From Maricaulis sp. (GTDB taxonomy: Bacteria > Pseudomonadota > Alphaproteobacteria > Caulobacterales > Maricaulaceae): a DNA stretch of 64,000 bases. The translations under genes were made by a program, and so were the position numbers. Within the stretch, counting starts at the first letter, position 1. Each line of letters starts with the position of its first letter. This document shows, in pieces, positions 8,015 to 15,908 of the stretch. Location of the stretch: positions 186,001 through 250,000 of the forward strand of contig NZ_JADFAJ010000003.1 in assembly GCF_015665295.1 (NCBI RefSeq), in the 5' to 3' direction. Below the pieces are notes generated by a model. It made no database searches. It was not told where the DNA came from and saw only the letters and a program-made list of their open reading frames with translations.

Positions 8015-9985
8015 TCAGGGCGTCACAATCGCGAAATCGGGCTGTGGCTGTTCCAGCATCGCGAAAAATCCGAGCAGTGCCAGCCGGTCACCGGCGACCA
8101 CAAACTCGTCCGACCCGATCATCTGCACAAGCCCGGCCTCCTGCTGCAGCAGGCGGAGCCAGAAGGCGCGGGTCAGGGTGACGGTGGCATCGGCATCGGC
8201 CACGGCTTCGGCCTGACGGTGATGCATCACCCCGTTGGACAGGCGGATGACATGGGTTTCCCCGACATCGGAAAAGACGAAATTGAAGACCCGGTTCCGC
8301 TGCGCCGCGCGCTCGCCATCAAGCCGTGTCGCCATGGCGGAAAAGAACATGTCCAGCGGAATGGATTGCAGGATGGCCGAGCCGGCCGCCGTCGCGTCCA
8401 GCGCATCGACCCCGTGGCGCAATTCGTATGCTCCGGTCAGATAGACATCACGCCAGGGTGCCGATTCCGCCGCATAGCCCAGCTGTTCATAGGCGCGGGC
8501 CAGCAACTCGCGGGCCGCGTCATCGCGCGGCGCGGCAAAGACGGCGTGCTGCGCCAGTTCGGCGGCCCAGCGATACTCGCCGGACTCAAACGCGATCCGG
8601 GCTTGCTCGACGACCGCCGCCACGCCGCCCAAGGCCTCGACATAGCGCTGCGCTGCCTCGACACGCGGCAAGGGGTCGAGATGGGCCGGCACGCCGTCAT
8701 ACCAGCCGAAATAGCGCTGATAGACGGCCCGGGCATTGTGCTTCAGCGTGCCGTAATAGCCCTGGACAGCGAATACGCCGGCCAGCCTGTCCGGCAGGGT
8801 GATCGTCTCCGCGATCTCGTCCGGGCCGAGCCCTCGTGCGGCCAGGCGCAGGGTCTGGTCATGGATATATTTGTAGACATCGCGCTGGGCGGTCAGGAAA
8901 TCCCGGCTTTCCTCGCCACCCCAGACCGGCCAGTGATGACTGTTGAAGATGACGGTGGTGCGAGAGCCGAAACGCGCCAGCGCGTCATCGATCGCGCCCG
9001 ACCAGGCCAGCGCATCGCGCACCTGGGCGCCACGCAGCGTGTAGAGATTGTGCATGGTCCGCGAGACCAGCTCGGCACCACACCAGGCATCCAGATCGGG
9101 AAAGAAGACCGTCAGTTCGGCCGGCGCCTCTGTCTCCGGCGCATACTGGAATTCCATGCGCACCCCGTCGATCTCGAGCGTCTGGCCGGTCGCATCGATG
9201 ACATGGGTCGGTGGGGCGATTGTATGCGTGCCCAATGCCGGGTGCTTGCCCAGGCCGGAGCCGACATGACCGCGCGACGTGCGTGGCAGGCGGGTGCCAT
9301 ACATGTAGCCGGCGCGTCGGCCCATCACGATGCCGGCCATGACATTCTCGCTGACCGCCGCCGCAAGGAATCCCGCCGGGGCGATGATGGGCGTGTCCGG
9401 CCCCGCAACCGCGCCGACACCACCGAAATGATCAATATGGGAATGGGTCAGGATGACCGCGCTGACCGGACGCTCACCAAGCTCCCGATTGACCAGGGCG
9501 AGCGCCGCCTCGGCCGTCTCGACAGATGTCAGCGGATCAATGATGATTCGGCCGGTCTCACCCTCGATGATCGACATGTTCGCCAGGTCATAGCCGCGCA
9601 CCTGGTAGATGCCGGGCGCGACCTCGAACAGGCCGTGGATCTGGTTGAGCCGGGCCTGCCGCCACAGGCCGGGATGCACGCTGGGCTGAGGCTCCGGGGC
9701 GAGGAAATCATAATCGGCCGGACGCCAGATAACCGCGCCGGTCGGGTCGGTGATTTCCAGATCTTCATCCCGGCCGACGAAACCGCGCATGGCCAGGACA
9801 TAGTCATCTGATGGCAGGGCATCGACCTGGCGGGCAAGACGGGCATTGGCCTGTTCGGTCGTAGCGGAAGCCGGATGAAATCCGGCTGCATCCGCACCGC
9901 CCGGCTCACTCACCACTGCCGGGCGCTCGCCACAGCCTGCCAGCACAAGGCCGAGCCCCATCACCACACCCGATATTTGCCGCAT
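8015..9985 (-). CDS. alkyl/aryl-sulfatase-like MBL lipoprotein
   Basis: Lipoprotein of 656 residues: a short signal with lipobox LAGC (Cys18), so probably envelope-anchored. The MBL domain carries THSHIDHFGG (His181, His183, Asp185, His186). A helical dimerisation region (about 440-530) and a C-terminal SCP2-like domain follow, the domain order of class III alkylsulfatases such as SdsA1 and BDS1. Those enzymes hydrolyse alkyl sulfate esters to alcohol and sulfate; activity here is inferred. The ATG at 9985 was chosen because GGGAGG lies six bases upstream and the lipobox then sits at the normal distance; the longer frame starts at 10012. First gene of a probable three-gene operon with the M14 peptidase and second MBL enzyme, divergent from a Crp/Fnr gene. 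Confidence 0.85.
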   Translation of the reverse strand: MRQISGVVMGLGLVLAGCGERPAVVSEPGGADAAGFHPASATTEQANARLARQVDALPSDDYVLAMRGFVGRDEDLEITDPTGAVIWRPADYDFLAPEPQPSVHPGLWRQARLNQIHGLFEVAPGIYQVRGYDLANMSIIEGETGRIIIDPLTSVETAEAALALVNRELGERPVSAVILTHSHIDHFGGVGAVAGPDTPIIAPAGFLAAAVSENVMAGIVMGRRAGYMYGTRLPRTSRGHVGSGLGKHPALGTHTIAPPTHVIDATGQTLEIDGVRMEFQYAPETEAPAELTVFFPDLDAWCGAELVSRTMHNLYTLRGAQVRDALAWSGAIDDALARFGSRTTVIFNSHHWPVWGGEESRDFLTAQRDVYKYIHDQTLRLAARGLGPDEIAETITLPDRLAGVFAVQGYYGTLKHNARAVYQRYFGWYDGVPAHLDPLPRVEAAQRYVEALGGVAAVVEQARIAFESGEYRWAAELAQHAVFAAPRDDAARELLARAYEQLGYAAESAPWRDVYLTGAYELRHGVDALDATAAGSAILQSIPLDMFFSAMATRLDGERAAQRNRVFNFVFSDVGETHVIRLSNGVMHHRQAEAVADADATVTLTRAFWLRLLQQEAGLVQMIGSDEFVVAGDRLALLGFFAMLEQPQPDFAIVTP

Positions 9986-10113
9986 TGATGCCTCCCGGAG
10001 AACAGTGTTCACCGCAGGCTAGCGGCCATTTCGGGAATTGGCGATGCCAGATGTAGGGATGGACAGGGCAAACAACCGAATTCGCTGGCTTTTTTTTGAG
10101 AGACAACTAGCTT

Positions 10114-10163: not shown

Positions 10164-10850
10164 ATGAAGCTCGACACCGCCTGGACCCATGCTTTGACGG
10201 ATCTCGACATCCGTGATGAGGCGGCACGCCAGGCAATGGCCCGCGAGGCCGAGCGAATGGGCGCGCGCGCAGGCACGGTCATCATCGCCCAGGACGAGGC
10301 CGATGATCGCGTCTTCCTGCTGCTCGAAGGTCGCGCCCGGGTCGTGCTGCTGTCGGAGGACGGGCAGGAAATCTGGCTGGACGGATTTGAATCCGGCGCG
10401 GTGTTCGGCGAGCTCGCCTCGCTGACCGGCCAGCCCCGGATATCCGGCATCATCGCGGAAACCGAATGCGATCTCGCGGTCTACACCGGCGATGCCTTTT
10501 TTGACCTGATCCGTCACCACGGCGAAATCGGCCTCGCCCTGTCTCGCCTGCTCGCCCGCCGCGTCCAGCACACGACACAGCGCATGTTCGAGCTTTCCGC
10601 CCTGTCTGCGCCGGGCCGCATCTATGCCGAGCTGCTGCGCATGTCCAGACCGGTCGGATCCGACCGCAGCGCCCGCGTGATCGAACCGGCGCCATCGATG
10701 AAGGAATTGGCCTTGCGGGTGAACTCGACCCGCGAAACCGCGTCTCGCACAATCAATGACCTGCAGCGCAAGGGATTGCTCGAGAAGCTGCGCGACCGCA
10801 TCGAACTGGTCGATCCCGACCAGCTAGCCCGGCTGCGCGGCTCGAGCTGA
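10164..10850 (+). CDS. Crp/Fnr family transcriptional regulator
   Basis: Cytoplasmic DNA-binding regulator of 228 residues. Residues 20-120 form the cyclic-nucleotide-binding beta-roll, with FGELASL (Glu83) and a phosphate-contacting Arg92; the residue after Arg92 is Ile rather than the Ser/Thr usual in cAMP-binding Crp, so ligand binding is uncertain. There is no N-terminal Cys cluster, so it is not a classic Fe-S FNR. Residues 165-225 form the winged helix, with a recognition helix around STRETASRTINDL. The start has GAGGA five bases upstream. Its 3' end overlaps the last 27 bp of the convergent cyclase-like gene. It could respond to a nucleotide made by that neighbour, but that is inference. 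Confidence 0.92.
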   Translation: MKLDTAWTHALTDLDIRDEAARQAMAREAERMGARAGTVIIAQDEADDRVFLLLEGRARVVLLSEDGQEIWLDGFESGAVFGELASLTGQPRISGIIAETECDLAVYTGDAFFDLIRHHGEIGLALSRLLARRVQHTTQRMFELSALSAPGRIYAELLRMSRPVGSDRSARVIEPAPSMKELALRVNSTRETASRTINDLQRKGLLEKLRDRIELVDPDQLARLRGSS

Positions 10851-12659
10851 CCGGCTGCGGCGCAGATTGGCCGCGGCATTGGCTGGCAGGGCCCGCAGGG
10901 CATAGAGGCGCTGATCGGGCATCACCGGGTCAATCCGGATCTGCCCCACATACTCGCTGCGAAATGCGTAGGACGACATCGCCAGGACCGCGGCAAAAGC
11001 CTCGCTGACAAAGATTGATCCCGGCACGGTAACGGCCTCGATCCGGGCTGCCACGGCGACCTGTCCACCAAACAGGGAGGGACGCTTTTGCAGCGGATCT
11101 TCGCCTTCATGCACCGGCCCGAAATGCCCGGCAATGCGCAGTCCGAGCGAAGCAGGAAGATCGTGTTCGCGCATGTCGATTTCTGCGAAAGCCTGGCGCA
11201 GGGCATGGGCGGCCGCGGCGGCCTGTTCCACCCTGTCGAAAGCCAGGAACATGCCGTCACCCCAGCTGTCGGCGTGAATCGGTCGGTCGGGCAGCGCTTC
11301 GCAACAGGCGGCCAGGGGCTTGAGCACGGTCTGGACAAAATACGGCACCCGGTCATCGGGAACCGAGGATGATCCGGCAATGTCGAGGAACAGCATGGCC
11401 CGCATGGCCGGCGTGAAGCCGGGTTCGAGACGCTCGCCGGCCGTGGCCTCCGTACCTCCCGGCTGGCGCTGGCCGGGATAGGCGATACGCACCTGCTCAA
11501 GCCCGCAGGCTCTCCAGACGTCGCGGTCGTGCAGGGTTCCGAACGCAGCCCGCGCGTCGTCACAGCCCGGTTCACAGACCAGAATCTGCACAGGCTCGGT
11601 TGCCAGGACATGGGCCCGCATGCGCGCCATGCCCATCGAAACGAGACTGGCGAAATTGAGACTCTGCGCGGACACGATCCGGCGATCCGAGGTCAATTCG
11701 ACGACTTGCTCGGCCTGGTCAAGGCAGGTCTCGAAGCGGCGGATCCAGGCCTCTCCAAACGGCCGGACGGAGGCGTCGAGAAAGGCGGGCACCGGCGCCG
11801 GCAGGATCACATTGAGCTCGCATCCCCGAGCCAGTGCCGCCTCGGCGATGACGATGTCGGAGCCGGCGGCCAGCGCGCCATGAACCGGCCCCACACGATG
11901 CCGGGCCAGCATCAGTTCGACCGCATCGCGCAGCCGCCCCTCCTGCCGGCGGTCGAGCTGGGCCTCGCCGTCTCCCAGACCAAAGATATGACCGGCAAAA
12001 TGCGCCGGTCGTGGCGGCTCCAAGGGCGCCAGCCAGTCTGAATCGAGGCCAAGCACGGCAACCAGCAGGCGCAGCTGGCGCAGCGTCGTGGCATGCGCGA
12101 GATGATTGTCGGGATCCTGCCGGAACGCTTCGCGCAGCATCGACCGCGCCGTCGGCAGGTTCCCGAGCAGTAGATAGGCCTCGGCGCGGGAGGCATGGCG
12201 GTAGTAGGACTGCTCCGCGGAAACGCTACCGACCTCATAGCCGCCATAGAGCACCTGGCGGGCGTAGGTCTCCGCCGGTCCGGGCTCGCCGGCCAGCATG
12301 TACATGCTGGCCGCATTGATCGCCGGGTAATGGCCACCGGTCCGGGCATGCACCTCGGCATATTTAAGGGCACTTTCGCGCGCCAGGCGGGCGAATTCGC
12401 GGCCCGATGATTCAAGCGCCAGTGCCTTGAGCAAACGGGCCCCGACCGCGAGACAATCCTCGTCATGCCGGACTTCCGAAAGTCGGTAATCATGGTAGGC
12501 CGCGGATGCCCGCTCCAGCGCACCGGACCGGATCAGGCACAGCACGGCGCGATGCCTGAGCCAGAAATCATCAGGACGGTCGCGAAGACCGTCCTGACAA
12601 AGATCATAGGCCCGGGCGAGGTCGCCCTGGTTGAATCGATCAATGATCCGCTCACGCAC
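10824..12659 (-). CDS. TPR / SLOG-like / class III cyclase-like signalling protein
   Basis: Protein of 611 residues without signal peptide or clear membrane segment. Residues 1-200 are helical TPR-like repeats. Residues 215-330 look like a Rossmann-type nucleotide-binding domain: a GALAAGSDIVIAEAAL stretch followed by NVILPAP recalls SLOG/DprA-type folds. Residues 418-590 resemble a class III nucleotidyl cyclase, with metal Asp426 in FLDIAGSS and Asp468 in WGDGMF. The usual base-selecting Lys before GD is Asp, and the transition-state Asn before the conserved Arg539 is Ala (VAVAAR). Activity may therefore be altered or lost. The start is GTG with GGGAG seven bases upstream. It is the last gene of the TIR operon, 59 bp after the unknown protein. 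Confidence 0.75.
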   Translation of the reverse strand: MRERIIDRFNQGDLARAYDLCQDGLRDRPDDFWLRHRAVLCLIRSGALERASAAYHDYRLSEVRHDEDCLAVGARLLKALALESSGREFARLARESALKYAEVHARTGGHYPAINAASMYMLAGEPGPAETYARQVLYGGYEVGSVSAEQSYYRHASRAEAYLLLGNLPTARSMLREAFRQDPDNHLAHATTLRQLRLLVAVLGLDSDWLAPLEPPRPAHFAGHIFGLGDGEAQLDRRQEGRLRDAVELMLARHRVGPVHGALAAGSDIVIAEAALARGCELNVILPAPVPAFLDASVRPFGEAWIRRFETCLDQAEQVVELTSDRRIVSAQSLNFASLVSMGMARMRAHVLATEPVQILVCEPGCDDARAAFGTLHDRDVWRACGLEQVRIAYPGQRQPGGTEATAGERLEPGFTPAMRAMLFLDIAGSSSVPDDRVPYFVQTVLKPLAACCEALPDRPIHADSWGDGMFLAFDRVEQAAAAAHALRQAFAEIDMREHDLPASLGLRIAGHFGPVHEGEDPLQKRPSLFGGQVAVAARIEAVTVPGSIFVSEAFAAVLAMSSYAFRSEYVGQIRIDPVMPDQRLYALRALPANAAANLRRSRSARAAQPG

Positions 12660-12718
12660 GCGCCTGCTCCCGGCCGACTGCGCCCTGTCGCGGACCTGCC
12701 CGATAGCCGGGCAACCGG

Positions 12719-13327
12719 TCAGGGCGGCGTGAGACGAATGGCCGGGTCAATGATGACCCGGGTATTCTGCTCACCTGCGTCCTGCGACGAATTGATGAAG
12801 AGCGCGAATTCATAAACGGCGGGCGCCTCGACCGGCTTGGTCTGGATCTGGAAGCTGTATGGCTTGCAGTTTTCACCATTCAGGGTCAGCCAGTCCAGCC
12901 CGCAGAACTGGCCCGACGGATCGGAACCCTTGAACTTGATGCGGGCATTCTCGAATCCCCAGCCCGGGACATGGATGTTGAAAATCATCCGGGTCCGGCC
13001 ATGCACACTCTGGTCGAACGGGCACGGATTTTCCGCCGAACAGGGCGTCCACATGCCAGCCAGCGCCGCGGCGAGCGCGGTTCGCAGGGTGGAACTGTCG
13101 GCATTGGCGAAATCATTCACGGTTTCCGCAAAGATCACGAAGATCTGGGCAATCTCGGCATCGTCAAACATCTCACGTCCGACATCGCTACCATTCATGA
13201 CGGTAAACCCGTCACTGGCCTGCGCGATCAGGCTGATCTGCGTCTGCGTTGGTGTCAGGCCGCATTTGCCCAACAATTCTTCCTGAACAATGGACCCGTC
13301 AAACGCGTCCCTGTCGATCACAGCCAT
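12719..13327 (-). CDS. conserved-context hypothetical protein (TIR operon)
   Basis: Protein of 202 residues that I do not recognise. It has no signal peptide and no membrane segment. Cys occurs in two short motifs (CSAENPCPF and FCGLDW) and once more in NGENCK, which could bind metal or form disulfides. The N-terminal half looks helical; the C-terminal half is richer in aromatic and beta-type residues (NIHVPGWGFENARIKFKG, YSFQIQTKP). The ATG at 13327 was chosen because GAGGGGGA lies seven bases upstream; a longer frame to 13348 has no such site. It lies between the TIR-TPR gene (58 bp upstream) and the cyclase-like gene (59 bp downstream) on the same strand, implying a shared function. Confidence 0.7.
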   Translation of the reverse strand: MAVIDRDAFDGSIVQEELLGKCGLTPTQTQISLIAQASDGFTVMNGSDVGREMFDDAEIAQIFVIFAETVNDFANADSSTLRTALAAALAGMWTPCSAENPCPFDQSVHGRTRMIFNIHVPGWGFENARIKFKGSDPSGQFCGLDWLTLNGENCKPYSFQIQTKPVEAPAVYEFALFINSSQDAGEQNTRVIIDPAIRLTPP

Positions 13328-13385
13328 TCGGATGTCCCCCTCTGGCATTTCGCGAACGCCGACCCGCGCGCCAGGCCGGCAGTAC

Positions 13386-15434
13386 TTATTGCGCGGTCAT
13401 GAGCGCGCGTTCGAGCGATTCCCGAGCATATTCCAGCTCGGCGGCGGAATCGGTCCGAATTCGGTCGCGAATGGGATCAAGCCGGCGCACGACGCCCTCC
13501 CGGACACGACGCGCCTCGCCGACCTGCCCTTGCGCCTCGAGCACATCGGCCAGCGTATTGGCCCCGGCTGCATAGTAGTAGGGCGCCCGTTCCAGTGCAC
13601 CCGACCAGTCGTCAACCTGGCCAAGCGTGGTCAGCATGTGCTCGACCGATGTCTGGGCCGCGGCATATTCCCCACGGGCGGCAAAGATACGCGCCTCGAT
13701 CAGGCTGGCATGCAGGCGCGTCACGGCGAAGCGCGCGCCTTCGGCTGCGCCCCAGGCCTCGTGCGCCATGAAGCCGGTCGCGGTCACATAGGCATTGCGG
13801 GCCCCTTCGATCCGGCCGTTGAACAATTCCGCCTGGGCTAGCCAGAGCCGCTCGCGCACGCCGATCAGGCGCCATTCCAGATTGTCCGGCTCATGCGCGA
13901 TAAGCGCCGCCGCCTCGAAGGAGGCGGGCTCAAGGATTTGCAGCGCCCGCTCAAGGTCCGCAGCCGGCGTTCGCCAGCCCGGCGCGATCAACAGCCGGGC
14001 CAATGCGTACTCGGCCGCGATGACCGCGCGGCGCACGCGCCAGTCATCTGTCGGATCCACCCGGCCGCTCTCATACAAGGCCAGCTGTTCCTCGATCGCC
14101 GCGATCGCGGCCTCCCGGCCATCGGTGATTTCCGAAATCGAGGCCACCCAGGCCAGGGTTTCAGCGACTTCCATCCAGGCCGGGTCATTGTCGGGCCGAC
14201 CTTCGGCCAGCGCCCTGAACTGCTCGAGCGCGGCATTGGCCGCTACCAGCGCGTCACCCCAGCGCCGCTGAGCGACCTGCAGTGTCCCGATATTCGATTG
14301 CGCGTAGGCGACTTCCGCCTGCCATTCCGCATTGTCGGGATCGATCGCGATCAGGCGATGGGCCAGCTCGCGGTATTCGACGAAGCGCTGCTCAGCGACA
14401 TCCAGATCCCCGCGGCGCCAGGCGAAATACCCGACCCAGTAACTGCTCTGGGCATGTTCATAGATACGTTCCGCCATCGTCGGCTCGACGGCGAGAATCC
14501 GGCTGGTCGAGTCATAGGCAATGCGGAAATGGTGGTAGGCATTGTCAAGATCGCCCTGGGCGCTGTCGATCTCACCGAGGAGATGGAAGGCCCTTGCCCG
14601 CCGGCCGAGCTCGTCAGTGGTCATCTCACCGTCGCTCTGACCGTCATAATATTCGATCACCTTCGCCCCGACTGCGTCCAGCGCATCGAGTCGACCGACC
14701 GGTTCAAGATTGTCTCGCAGATCATTCAGCATGAACTCAATGAGGTCCTCGGCCTCGGCCTTGCGCCGGACCGCCTCGGACTGGGCCGAGACAGCCAGCA
14801 GCGTCAGTGTCGCCATGATAGCCGAAAGCAACACGGATGCGCCTGTGATCGCGGTCACGCGGCGCTGGCGTCGCTGAAGGTCGCGCTGGATCAGTTGATC
14901 GAGACTGATATCAAGCAGGCCCGCGACCAGTTTGAGCAGTGCCATGCGGCGTCCGTCAGCACTGCGGCGCATGTCGGCCGCCACCGGTTCGGCCACCGCC
15001 GATCCGTCCGCCGCCGGCTCCAGCAGGGCTGGCGGAAAACAGGTTTCGCCTGGTTCGGCATTGGGGTCTGCGTCAGGATTGCCGGCCAGCACTGCGGCCA
15101 GCACAACACCATCCGGATTGAGCTGGCGGTAGGCGCGGATCTCCTCATTGACCCATCGCGATTCAACCGCGTCGGGCGAGCAGACAACGATGAGGGCATC
15201 GGAGTTGGCCAGGGCGCTGCGGACCGATGCGGTCAGGTCGCCGGTCGCCGCAAGATCCTCGCGGTCCCGGAAGATCGGGGTCAGGCGCCGCGGCACCGTG
15301 CCTTGCGCGGTCTCACGTCCCACCAGGCGCGCCGGCACATTATAGGTCTCCAGCTGGCGGTGCAGCCAGCGGGCAAATTGTTGGTCGCGATGACTGTAGC
15401 TGATGAATGCCCTGTAGCGCGTGCCCACACTCAT
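13386..15434 (-). CDS. membrane-anchored TIR-TPR protein
   Basis: Protein of 682 residues. Residues 5-140 form a TIR domain: FISYSHRDQQFA at box 1, a basic loop with FRDRED (55-60), and SRWVNEEI, where Glu98 is four residues after Trp94. That spacing matches the catalytic Glu of NAD-cleaving TIR domains such as SARM1. A single hydrophobic segment (about 193-215, after a basic RRQRR stretch) should anchor it in the inner membrane with TIR in the cytoplasm. A coiled segment and TPR-like helical repeats (about 270-660) follow, presumably periplasmic. It is first in a three-gene operon with an unknown protein and a cyclase-like protein. Whether TIR acts as an NADase or only as a scaffold cannot be read from sequence. 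Confidence 0.85.
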   Translation of the reverse strand: MSVGTRYRAFISYSHRDQQFARWLHRQLETYNVPARLVGRETAQGTVPRRLTPIFRDREDLAATGDLTASVRSALANSDALIVVCSPDAVESRWVNEEIRAYRQLNPDGVVLAAVLAGNPDADPNAEPGETCFPPALLEPAADGSAVAEPVAADMRRSADGRRMALLKLVAGLLDISLDQLIQRDLQRRQRRVTAITGASVLLSAIMATLTLLAVSAQSEAVRRKAEAEDLIEFMLNDLRDNLEPVGRLDALDAVGAKVIEYYDGQSDGEMTTDELGRRARAFHLLGEIDSAQGDLDNAYHHFRIAYDSTSRILAVEPTMAERIYEHAQSSYWVGYFAWRRGDLDVAEQRFVEYRELAHRLIAIDPDNAEWQAEVAYAQSNIGTLQVAQRRWGDALVAANAALEQFRALAEGRPDNDPAWMEVAETLAWVASISEITDGREAAIAAIEEQLALYESGRVDPTDDWRVRRAVIAAEYALARLLIAPGWRTPAADLERALQILEPASFEAAALIAHEPDNLEWRLIGVRERLWLAQAELFNGRIEGARNAYVTATGFMAHEAWGAAEGARFAVTRLHASLIEARIFAARGEYAAAQTSVEHMLTTLGQVDDWSGALERAPYYYAAGANTLADVLEAQGQVGEARRVREGVVRRLDPIRDRIRTDSAAELEYARESLERALMTAQ

Positions 15435-15908
15435 GACCTGTCCCCGAACCGCCGCCAGCTATAATTGGCGCTTCGGGGGTCAGGTGCAACCGGTGGCCGT
15501 CGATGCGCGCGCCGGCAAACACAGCTTTCAACACGTTTTCCTTGTCAGCGGGCGTCGCCCGCCTGCTTGTTCCGTGTCAGCGGGCTTCGCCCGCCTGCTT
15601 GTTCCGTATCAGCAGGTCTCACTCGCCTGCCTGTTCCGCGTCAGCGGGCTTCGCGCGCCTGGCTGAGCCGGGCCTCGGGAGCGGCTGCGGGAGCCCCGGC
15701 GGCGGGGGTGCAATTGCGGCGGGGCGCAAGGCGAAGTTGGGGCTTCGCATGGGCAAGGACTTGCGCCCCGCCGATCCTGCGACAGCGAGCTGCACACAGG
15801 AGTCTGGGGCCGCTCATCGAGCGGTACCCCGAAGCTAGCGACACGCTGCCCTGCAACATGTGATGCCGGTCACGCTCGAACATGAATTTCAATCCATGAA
15901 GGCTGGCG
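15435..15908. other. 474-bp intergenic region with hairpin repeats
   Basis: Non-coding spacer between the start of the TIR gene and the stop of the DUF3108 gene. The left third contains the hairpin array at 15541-15661. The rest is GC-rich (gccccggcggcggg-type sequence) and shows no convincing ORF. The TIR operon promoter must lie in the part nearest 15435, but no clear -35/-10 pair was found. Confidence 0.7.
15541..15661. repeat. tandem array of 32-bp hairpin repeats
   Basis: Three full 32-bp units lie head to tail (15566-15597, 15598-15629, 15630-15661) after a 25-bp shortened copy (15541-15565). Each unit reads about TTCCGTGTCAGCGGGC then TTCGCCCGCCTGC. The core GCGGGC TTC GCCCGC forms a 6-bp stem with a 3-base loop, perfect in the second copy and degraded in the third and fourth. 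There are no unique spacers, so it is not a CRISPR. It resembles REP/BIME-type palindromic elements. Confidence 0.75.

Follow-up and report, generated by a model that had tools for sequence, protein, structure and literature searches.

The closest described relatives of the locus reported here, a four-gene block in a 64,000-nucleotide stretch of Maricaulis sp. DNA (hereafter, the window), are the predicted systems that combine TPR-S, pNTSase1 and TIR proteins (PF20308, PF20301), Pycsar, Thoeris, and the classical control of transcription by cyclic AMP (cAMP) and CRP. Three genes of the block lie on the minus strand and encode a TIR-TPR protein (13386-15434, 682 residues), a 202-residue protein that we call M (12719-13327) and a protein that we call C (10824-12659, 611 residues, GTG start), in which a TPR-S domain is followed by a Rossmann-like part and a class III cyclase. 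The fourth, on the plus strand and convergent to C, encodes a CRP-type regulator of 228 residues (10164-10850). On balance, we consider it probable that the four genes form one self-regulated signalling unit, in which C produces a cyclic mononucleotide, most likely cAMP, to which CRP responds by controlling the operon, with the TIR protein as the effector arm.

The TPR-S/pNTSase1/TIR systems, whose domain names reportedly go back to Burroughs and Aravind 2020, resemble our locus in the TPR-S domain of C, the TIR partner and the presence of pNTSase1 in the slot between TIR and C in relatives from another family of the class (f15). In contrast to them, the window locus has a linked CRP gene, a CRP-type DNA box ahead of the operon, a match in state between cyclase and CRP pocket, a diverged M and an apparently vertical inheritance within the genus. 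Pycsar (PycC with PycTIR or PycTM) likewise brings a class III cyclase, a cyclic-nucleotide-binding protein and a TIR into one locus; here, however, the binding domain sits on the DNA-binding CRP and not on the TIR protein, and the putative base-reading residue is Thr instead of the Asn for uracil, so we do not assign the locus to Pycsar. Similarly, the window TIR matches the profile of the Thoeris TIR protein, ThsB_TIR, above its cut-off, but we rejected membership because M and C gave no ThsA match in PADLOC at E<=1 (the other neighbours were not scanned). With classical cAMP-CRP control the locus shares a cyclase, a CRP with phosphate-binding cassette and C-helix Thr, and a box of the TGTGAN6TCACA type; it differs in carrying the cyclase on one polypeptide with TPR-S and Rossmann-like parts, in linkage with TIR and M. 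In the literature searched, which covered few subscription journals, we found no description of TIR, TPR-S, cyclase and CRP together. The parts are already named in Pfam; their coupling to a CRP and the parallel state of cyclase and pocket are new as far as that search goes.

The preliminary description of this DNA had proposed an operon of three same-strand genes, encoding a TIR-TPR protein, a protein of 202 residues and a TPR/SLOG-like/cyclase-like protein, with a Crp/Fnr gene next door, and had staked the proposal on a conserved neighbourhood and on profile matches to TIR and SLOG. The open reading frames bear this arrangement out, and the neighbourhood is conserved. A search of 137 genomes of the family found M in 19, of which 18 belong to the genus (taken as Maricaulis, with 19 genomes in the search) and one, G136, to another; the order TIR-M-C is held in all 19. 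Kept in every genome with M, and in G136 at 26-43% protein identity, this order goes beyond chance. The CRP gene is convergent and overlaps C tail to tail, by 27 bp in the window (10824-10850); wherever the contig of a genus locus or of G136 covers both genes, there is such an overlap (18 of 18, 12-72 bp). The CRP gene belongs to the conserved TIR-M-C block. The remaining genus genome (G073, 94% complete) gave no match to M, CRP or C at the thresholds used. Among genus members, the four proteins show distances that track those of edd (r 0.94-0.97, 55 pairs) and of an alkyl sulfatase gene (r 0.82-0.91, 78 pairs), as expected for vertical inheritance. In the 15 kb retrieved around the G136 locus, TIR, M, C and CRP are present, and edd, DUF3108 and the alkyl sulfatase gene were unmatched.

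C was found in 49 of the 137 family genomes and 29 of 119 genomes of f15 (E<=1e-20 in both), and in 26 of 385 genomes of a class sample that includes the source genome (E<=1e-15). By sequence, M matched only the source genome among these 385. The even gaps of 58-59 bp that had been pointed out are present in the window, where M and C are 59 bp apart and TIR and M 58 bp, or 37 bp, depending on the start of M, but the evenness is not kept among relatives (3-98 and 26-61 bp in 18 loci). The open reading frame of M (12719-13348) yields 209 residues from its first ATG, at 13348, and 202 from its second; we favour the latter because the longest M frame measures only 200-204 residues in six genus loci (L027, L031, L033, L035, L036, L042).

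One sign of a coupling of C to CRP is the state of their nucleotide sites. We scored 100 C rows, calling C and CRP a pair when their genes lie less than 400 bp apart, a cyclase intact when it keeps the equivalents of D426, D468 and R539 and exceeds 60 bits to the cyclase model (both limits set by us), and a cassette intact when G-E is followed by R; duplicates (L056, L090, L091) were removed from the counts. Among 70 adjacent pairs, 27 were intact in both partners, 43 broken in both and none mixed. This count includes L137, whose CRP-like frame of 779 residues may not be a CRP and without which the numbers are 26 and 43; L140 and L158, with the CRP 2.7 and 4.7 kb off, fit the pattern and stand outside the 70. 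Three loci have a CRP and no C (L062, L065, L068), L088 holds a C fragment and L168 a cyclase only. The intact pairs, all cassette-bearing, come from five placements: 17 genus loci, G136, three loci of genus g7 with a different slot arrangement (type B, see below), five loci of family f45, and L137. In L142, the cyclase domain still scores 142 bits and lacks D468, and its CRP has no cassette; in L148 and L150, the cassette Glu is present and the Arg lost. One contig of G102 carries both a CRP without cassette beside a broken C (L069) and a CRP with cassette and no C nearby (L068). TIR lies beside C in 21 of the 27 intact and 34 of the 43 broken pairs, with a weak match in one more.

In a tree of C residues 8-395, the broken loci occupy one side of a branch with a support of 88 in the Shimodaira-Hasegawa-like approximate likelihood ratio test (82 with more rows), as they do in a CRP tree built without the cassette (89); all three values are below 95. 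L085 was dropped from the first C tree, 13 rows from the larger one and L137 from the CRP tree. Because the broken group is nested among intact relatives when CRP-free, cyclase-intact sequences (not one clade) serve as outgroup, loss is the likelier direction. The broken sister clade keeps the gene pair, the order and, in part, the DNA box.

This box is the second sign of coupling. A palindrome CGTGACCGGCATCACA (operon strand) stands at 15859-15874, 440 bp before the TIR start, and all 19 genus and G136 loci have an exact YGTGAN6TCACR site in the 500 bp that precede TIR. Across the same loci, there are 19 such sites in the 9.5 kb upstream of TIR and 19 in 267 kb elsewhere, a 28-fold density; since the loci are related, this recurrence is a footprint and not 19 trials. 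The window holds four exact YGTGAN6TCACR sites where 0.12 are expected; with up to two mismatches to TGTGAN6TCACA it holds 18 against 14.8 expected, not above chance. Of the 27 intact pairs, 21 have an exact box ahead of TIR, C or CRP, and of the 43 broken ones, 14 (21 and 26 with one mismatch); these regions hold 0.56 and 0.26 exact boxes per kb, respectively, against 0.06 and 0.08 elsewhere. Three type-B loci whose cyclase is intact (L054, L066, L089) have an exact box ahead of the CRP gene, and the box before C reads CATGAN6TCACG in 11 family loci whose cyclase is broken or unscored. The source genome (3.16 Mb) has 16 exact boxes; among the 15 examined, five, including the operon box, fall outside predicted genes and the other 10 within them, so we rejected a wide CRP regulon.

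Nearer the TIR gene, a possible core promoter (15461-15489, minus strand) can be read by eye, with TTGCAC at 15489-15484, a 17-bp spacer and AATTAT at 15466-15461. TTGCAC is identical in the window and its five nearest relatives (6/6), and the second element varies. In the leader, a 32-bp unit is also repeated 3.9 times in tandem (15538-15661), between the CRP-type box and this candidate promoter, and the distance from box to TIR varies among relatives. A second exact CRP-type box is found inside the TIR gene (14844-14859).

The CRP itself matches cNMP_binding (9e-19) and HTH_Crp_2 (8.1e-14), and its nearest solved proteins are mycobacterial and corynebacterial CRP-type regulators. Its cassette (G82-E83 and R92) and the C-helix pair T137-T138 are kept in 18 loci (17 of the genus and G136). 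T138 is placed at the base-reading position by alignment to a solved mycobacterial CRP, a placement that also draws on the E. coli CRP sequence. At this position, Ser or Thr reads cAMP in CRPs, Asn marks a cUMP receptor and Glu a cGMP receptor, according to PMC11224242, from which the roles of the cassette Glu and Arg and of the C-helix Ser/Thr are also taken. The Thr here therefore points to cAMP as the ligand. Of the three PF00027 proteins of the source genome, one is this CRP and the other two are, by eye, a patatin-like enzyme and a Crp/Fnr-type protein without cassette; again by eye, only this CRP has both a Crp-type DNA-binding part and the full G-E..R cassette.

In C, the TPR-S domain (residues 1-213) was matched at 2.5e-6, with 28.4 bits against a cut-off of 27.6, and reached 38-51 bits in five relatives, while Guanylate_cyc was matched at 3.3e-7 (30.5 bits, cut-off 21.9) over the cyclase part (412-592). 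The structural model (predicted local distance difference test, pLDDT, 87) superimposes best on the cyclase CyaB (Z 21.8, root-mean-square deviation 2.1, 176 aligned residues). The TPR and cyclase-like labels of the preliminary description thus hold up. The metal Asp residues D426 and D468 and the transition-state Arg R539 are present in G136 and in every genus row in which C is complete (17 of 17), and C is the only PF00211 (class III cyclase) match found in the source genome. The middle part (217-393) is modelled as alternating strands and helices and had been called SLOG-like. Here the profiles did not follow: 23 relatives of this domain, searched at E<=5 (a limit at which the filters of HMMER already discard most matches weaker than 0.1), matched no SLOG family, and solved structures offered no relevant match. 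What is left of that identity is a likeness in motif, a glycine-rich GALAAGSD stretch that resembles DprA. The fold lists of whole C are filled by the cyclase domain, and they leave other folds possible for 217-393.

The TIR assignment stood, with TIR_2 at 8.5e-15 and ThsB_TIR at 3.7e-10, both above cut-off, over residues 10-116. A membrane helix is visible by eye at about 196-215, and the TPR part is degenerate, its TPR_12 match falling below cut-off. W94 and E98, in the segment SRWVNEEI, are invariant in 29 of 29 aligned rows; TIR NADases have their catalytic glutamate in this segment. PADLOC matches were weak (best SAVED_TIR, 2.7e-5), and cNMP_binding gave no match in the TIR protein at E<=1. 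The TIR protein would be a membrane-anchored, probably NAD-consuming effector or a messenger source.

M, left without identity in the preliminary description, indeed has no match of its own in Pfam, NCBIfam, PADLOC or PHROGs. Profile comparison relates it to the slot proteins of type-B loci (probability 95, E 1.9e-8) and to the f15 slot set, which includes pNTSase1 proper (probability 92, E 7.2e-7). By these comparisons, M is a diverged relative of Pfam pNTSase1, beyond detection by single-sequence profile search. In f15, pNTSase1 proper can fill the slot (4.2e-43 in L133, 1.2e-6 in L146), and among 10 slot proteins of relatives two score above and one just below its cut-off. In type-B loci (13 distinct loci of the family), two opposite-strand genes lie between TIR and C, encoding a protein of about 200-250 residues and a trypsin-like protease, the latter with a coiled-coil-like stretch (L054:9149-11302 and equivalents). 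An automatic rule found a same-strand frame with a DP tail in 41 of the 63 distinct loci with TIR and C; the other 22 comprise the 13 type-B loci, whose small protein is also DP-tailed, and nine that the rule did not assign. One slot protein (L081:8172-8987) has, by eye, a lipoprotein-like signal (LIGGC) at its start, a hint that this form lies outside the cytoplasm.

The AlphaFold2 model of M (pLDDT 87) is beta-rich, and its best solved fold match is the DP-EP protein (DUF1888) SO1698 (Foldseek E 1.2e-4; Z 9.1, root-mean-square deviation 3.0, 114 aligned), at a Z little above the 7 to 8 that this tool typically gives for models lacking a clear match; MakC/MakD (8.7) and PixA (7.6) follow. Such fold lists leave other folds possible, and nothing in that of M suggests a nucleotide synthetase, though it cannot exclude one. 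M ends in an IIDP motif, and its Asp-Pro (D201-P202 in 209-residue numbering) forms the only invariant columns in 32 slot proteins and lies, by alignment ends, within one residue of D116-P117 of SO1698. Self-cleavage of SO1698 has been described. Its chain length in PDB entries is 119 residues for the wild type, K98A, P115A, Q118A and Y26F, and 128 for D37A, S114A, D116A and P117A, from which we infer cleavage after Asp116. The two proteins differ, however: M has Ile in place of Ser114, two residues before the Asp, and the S114A mutant of SO1698 keeps its tail. M also lacks significant profile similarity to DP-EP. The PF08985 profile found none of the 32 slot proteins at E<=0.1 and none of 10 at E<=10, and profile comparisons of M, type-B and f15 sets with DP-EP gave E 0.08, 0.31 and 0.095, where 15 comparisons with column-shuffled DP-EP gave 0.12-0.89. 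We therefore rejected DP-EP membership and retain a likeness of fold. As the sequence comparison is not significant and Ser114 is not conserved, self-cleavage of M at its Asp-Pro is only a hypothesis. M may be a beta-rich adaptor or switch working with TIR or C.

Taken together, these features suggest the following mechanism. Through its TPR-S and Rossmann-like parts, C would detect a stimulus and activate its cyclase, whose product would be a cyclic mononucleotide, most likely cAMP. CRP would bind this nucleotide and act at the box upstream of TIR, setting the level of TIR, M and C. Executing the response, or passing it on, would then fall to the TIR protein and M, the latter together with TIR or C. 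What we observe is the linkage, the domain content, the catalytic and ligand-pocket residues, the box and the matching state of cyclase and pocket. The path from C through CRP to the operon is predicted from residues, linkage and the box; the enzyme activity, the identity of the ligand, the direction of regulation, the roles of TIR and M and the stimulus, we infer. A sensing circuit that includes the Crp gene, as the preliminary description had proposed, is well supported by the linkage, the sole class III cyclase found, the matching state of 70 of 70 pairs and the box.

Several observations weigh against this model. In canonical class III cyclases, a Lys/Asp pair selects the substrate and an Asn is catalytic; in C, judged by alignment to the solved cyclase Ma1120 and by neighbouring conserved residues, D464 stands where the Lys is expected, S528 where the Asp is expected and A535 in place of the Asn. 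Ma1120 likewise has Ala at the Asn position, and has Asp before LFG where C has S528. Given these residues, the cyclase activity of C and its product are putative. In the window CRP, the residue after the cassette Arg is Ile, and the majority of cassette-bearing relatives have Thr or Ser there. Against a fixed partnership speaks the lack of a nearby CRP match in 23 of 51 rows with an intact cyclase (28 of all 100 rows); two of the 23 (L041, L084) end at a contig edge. On each tree, a single change suffices to explain the broken pairs, which leaves one independent pair of changes; because of this, the joint state may be a single coincident loss with 43 descendants, and we rejected the repeated independent co-loss that the 70/70 table seemed to suggest. 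The box lies far for direct activation, 236-440 bp before TIR in 17 genus loci and more than 450 bp in L038, and is close only in G136 (60 bp). Ahead of the CRP gene, only one of the 18 genus and G136 loci shows a box at up to two mismatches. By our rule, no exact box occurs at the f45 loci, L137 or L140, of which the f45 pairs and L137 count here. Finally, we found no mechanistic link of TIR or M to a cyclic mononucleotide.

Other explanations must be considered. The locus might instead serve anti-phage defence by abortive infection, as a TPR-S/TIR conflict system in which C senses invasion, TIR depletes NAD and CRP is only a local regulator. The ThsB-like TIR, its weak PADLOC matches, and the pNTSase1 of the f15 slot and the trypsin-like protease of the 13 type-B loci, parts that Pfam names after predicted systems, fit this scenario. 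We nevertheless regard it as rather unlikely, since neither M nor C has a PADLOC match at E<=1, M is unmatched in a plasmid collection and C in a phage collection, and the tracking of edd and the alkyl sulfatase gene, with M kept in 18 of 19 genus genomes, describes a core locus and not a mobile defence island. The defence role raised in the preliminary description is accordingly not shown.

A slightly less probable alternative is that C and CRP are the general cAMP system of the genus and TIR-M a passenger with a role of its own. The lack of any other class III cyclase match in the genome agrees with it, as do the f45 pairs of C and cassette-bearing CRP without a nearby TIR match (L127, L129, L130, L169, L170), in which the CRP gene is directly upstream of the intact C on the same strand; but TIR accompanies C in all 19 genomes with M and in most intact and broken pairs, and the boxes, mostly inside predicted genes, make no broad regulon visible. 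We give less credence still to the idea that the cyclase domain is a pseudo-enzyme here too, with CRP answering another ligand or contact with C. Its non-canonical substrate residues, and the persistence of the gene pair in 43 relatives with both nucleotide sites lost, would suit such a domain, whereas the retention of both metal Asp residues, the Arg and the cassette in 17 of 17 genus rows with complete C would not.

Two neighbourhood details can be added. An alkyl sulfatase-type metallo-hydrolase gene (8015-10012 in the window) is divergent from the CRP gene and is matched beside CRP in many genus loci. In seven family loci (L074, L076-L079, L081, L082), the CRP gene is not convergent to C but lies downstream of it in the same orientation.

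It is also tempting to speculate, with more doubt than confidence, on two evolutionary states of the signalling unit that we favour. In this proposal, the genus would retain a messenger circuit, while the sister clade would have lost cyclase and pocket jointly, the role of the messenger probably passing to a direct contact of ligand-free CRP with the TPR-S protein, and the pNTSase1 family would be a DP-EP-like structural switch and not a nucleotide synthetase.

For the biology of these bacteria, the locus would connect a transcriptional circuit based on a cyclic mononucleotide with a TPR-S sensor and a TIR protein of the immune type. Its relatives offer a natural series from a working to a dead cyclase beside a receptor in the matching state, and thus a testable case in which the messenger may have been dropped while enzyme and receptor remain partners. 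Moreover, the locus calls into question the nucleotide synthetase label of pNTSase1.

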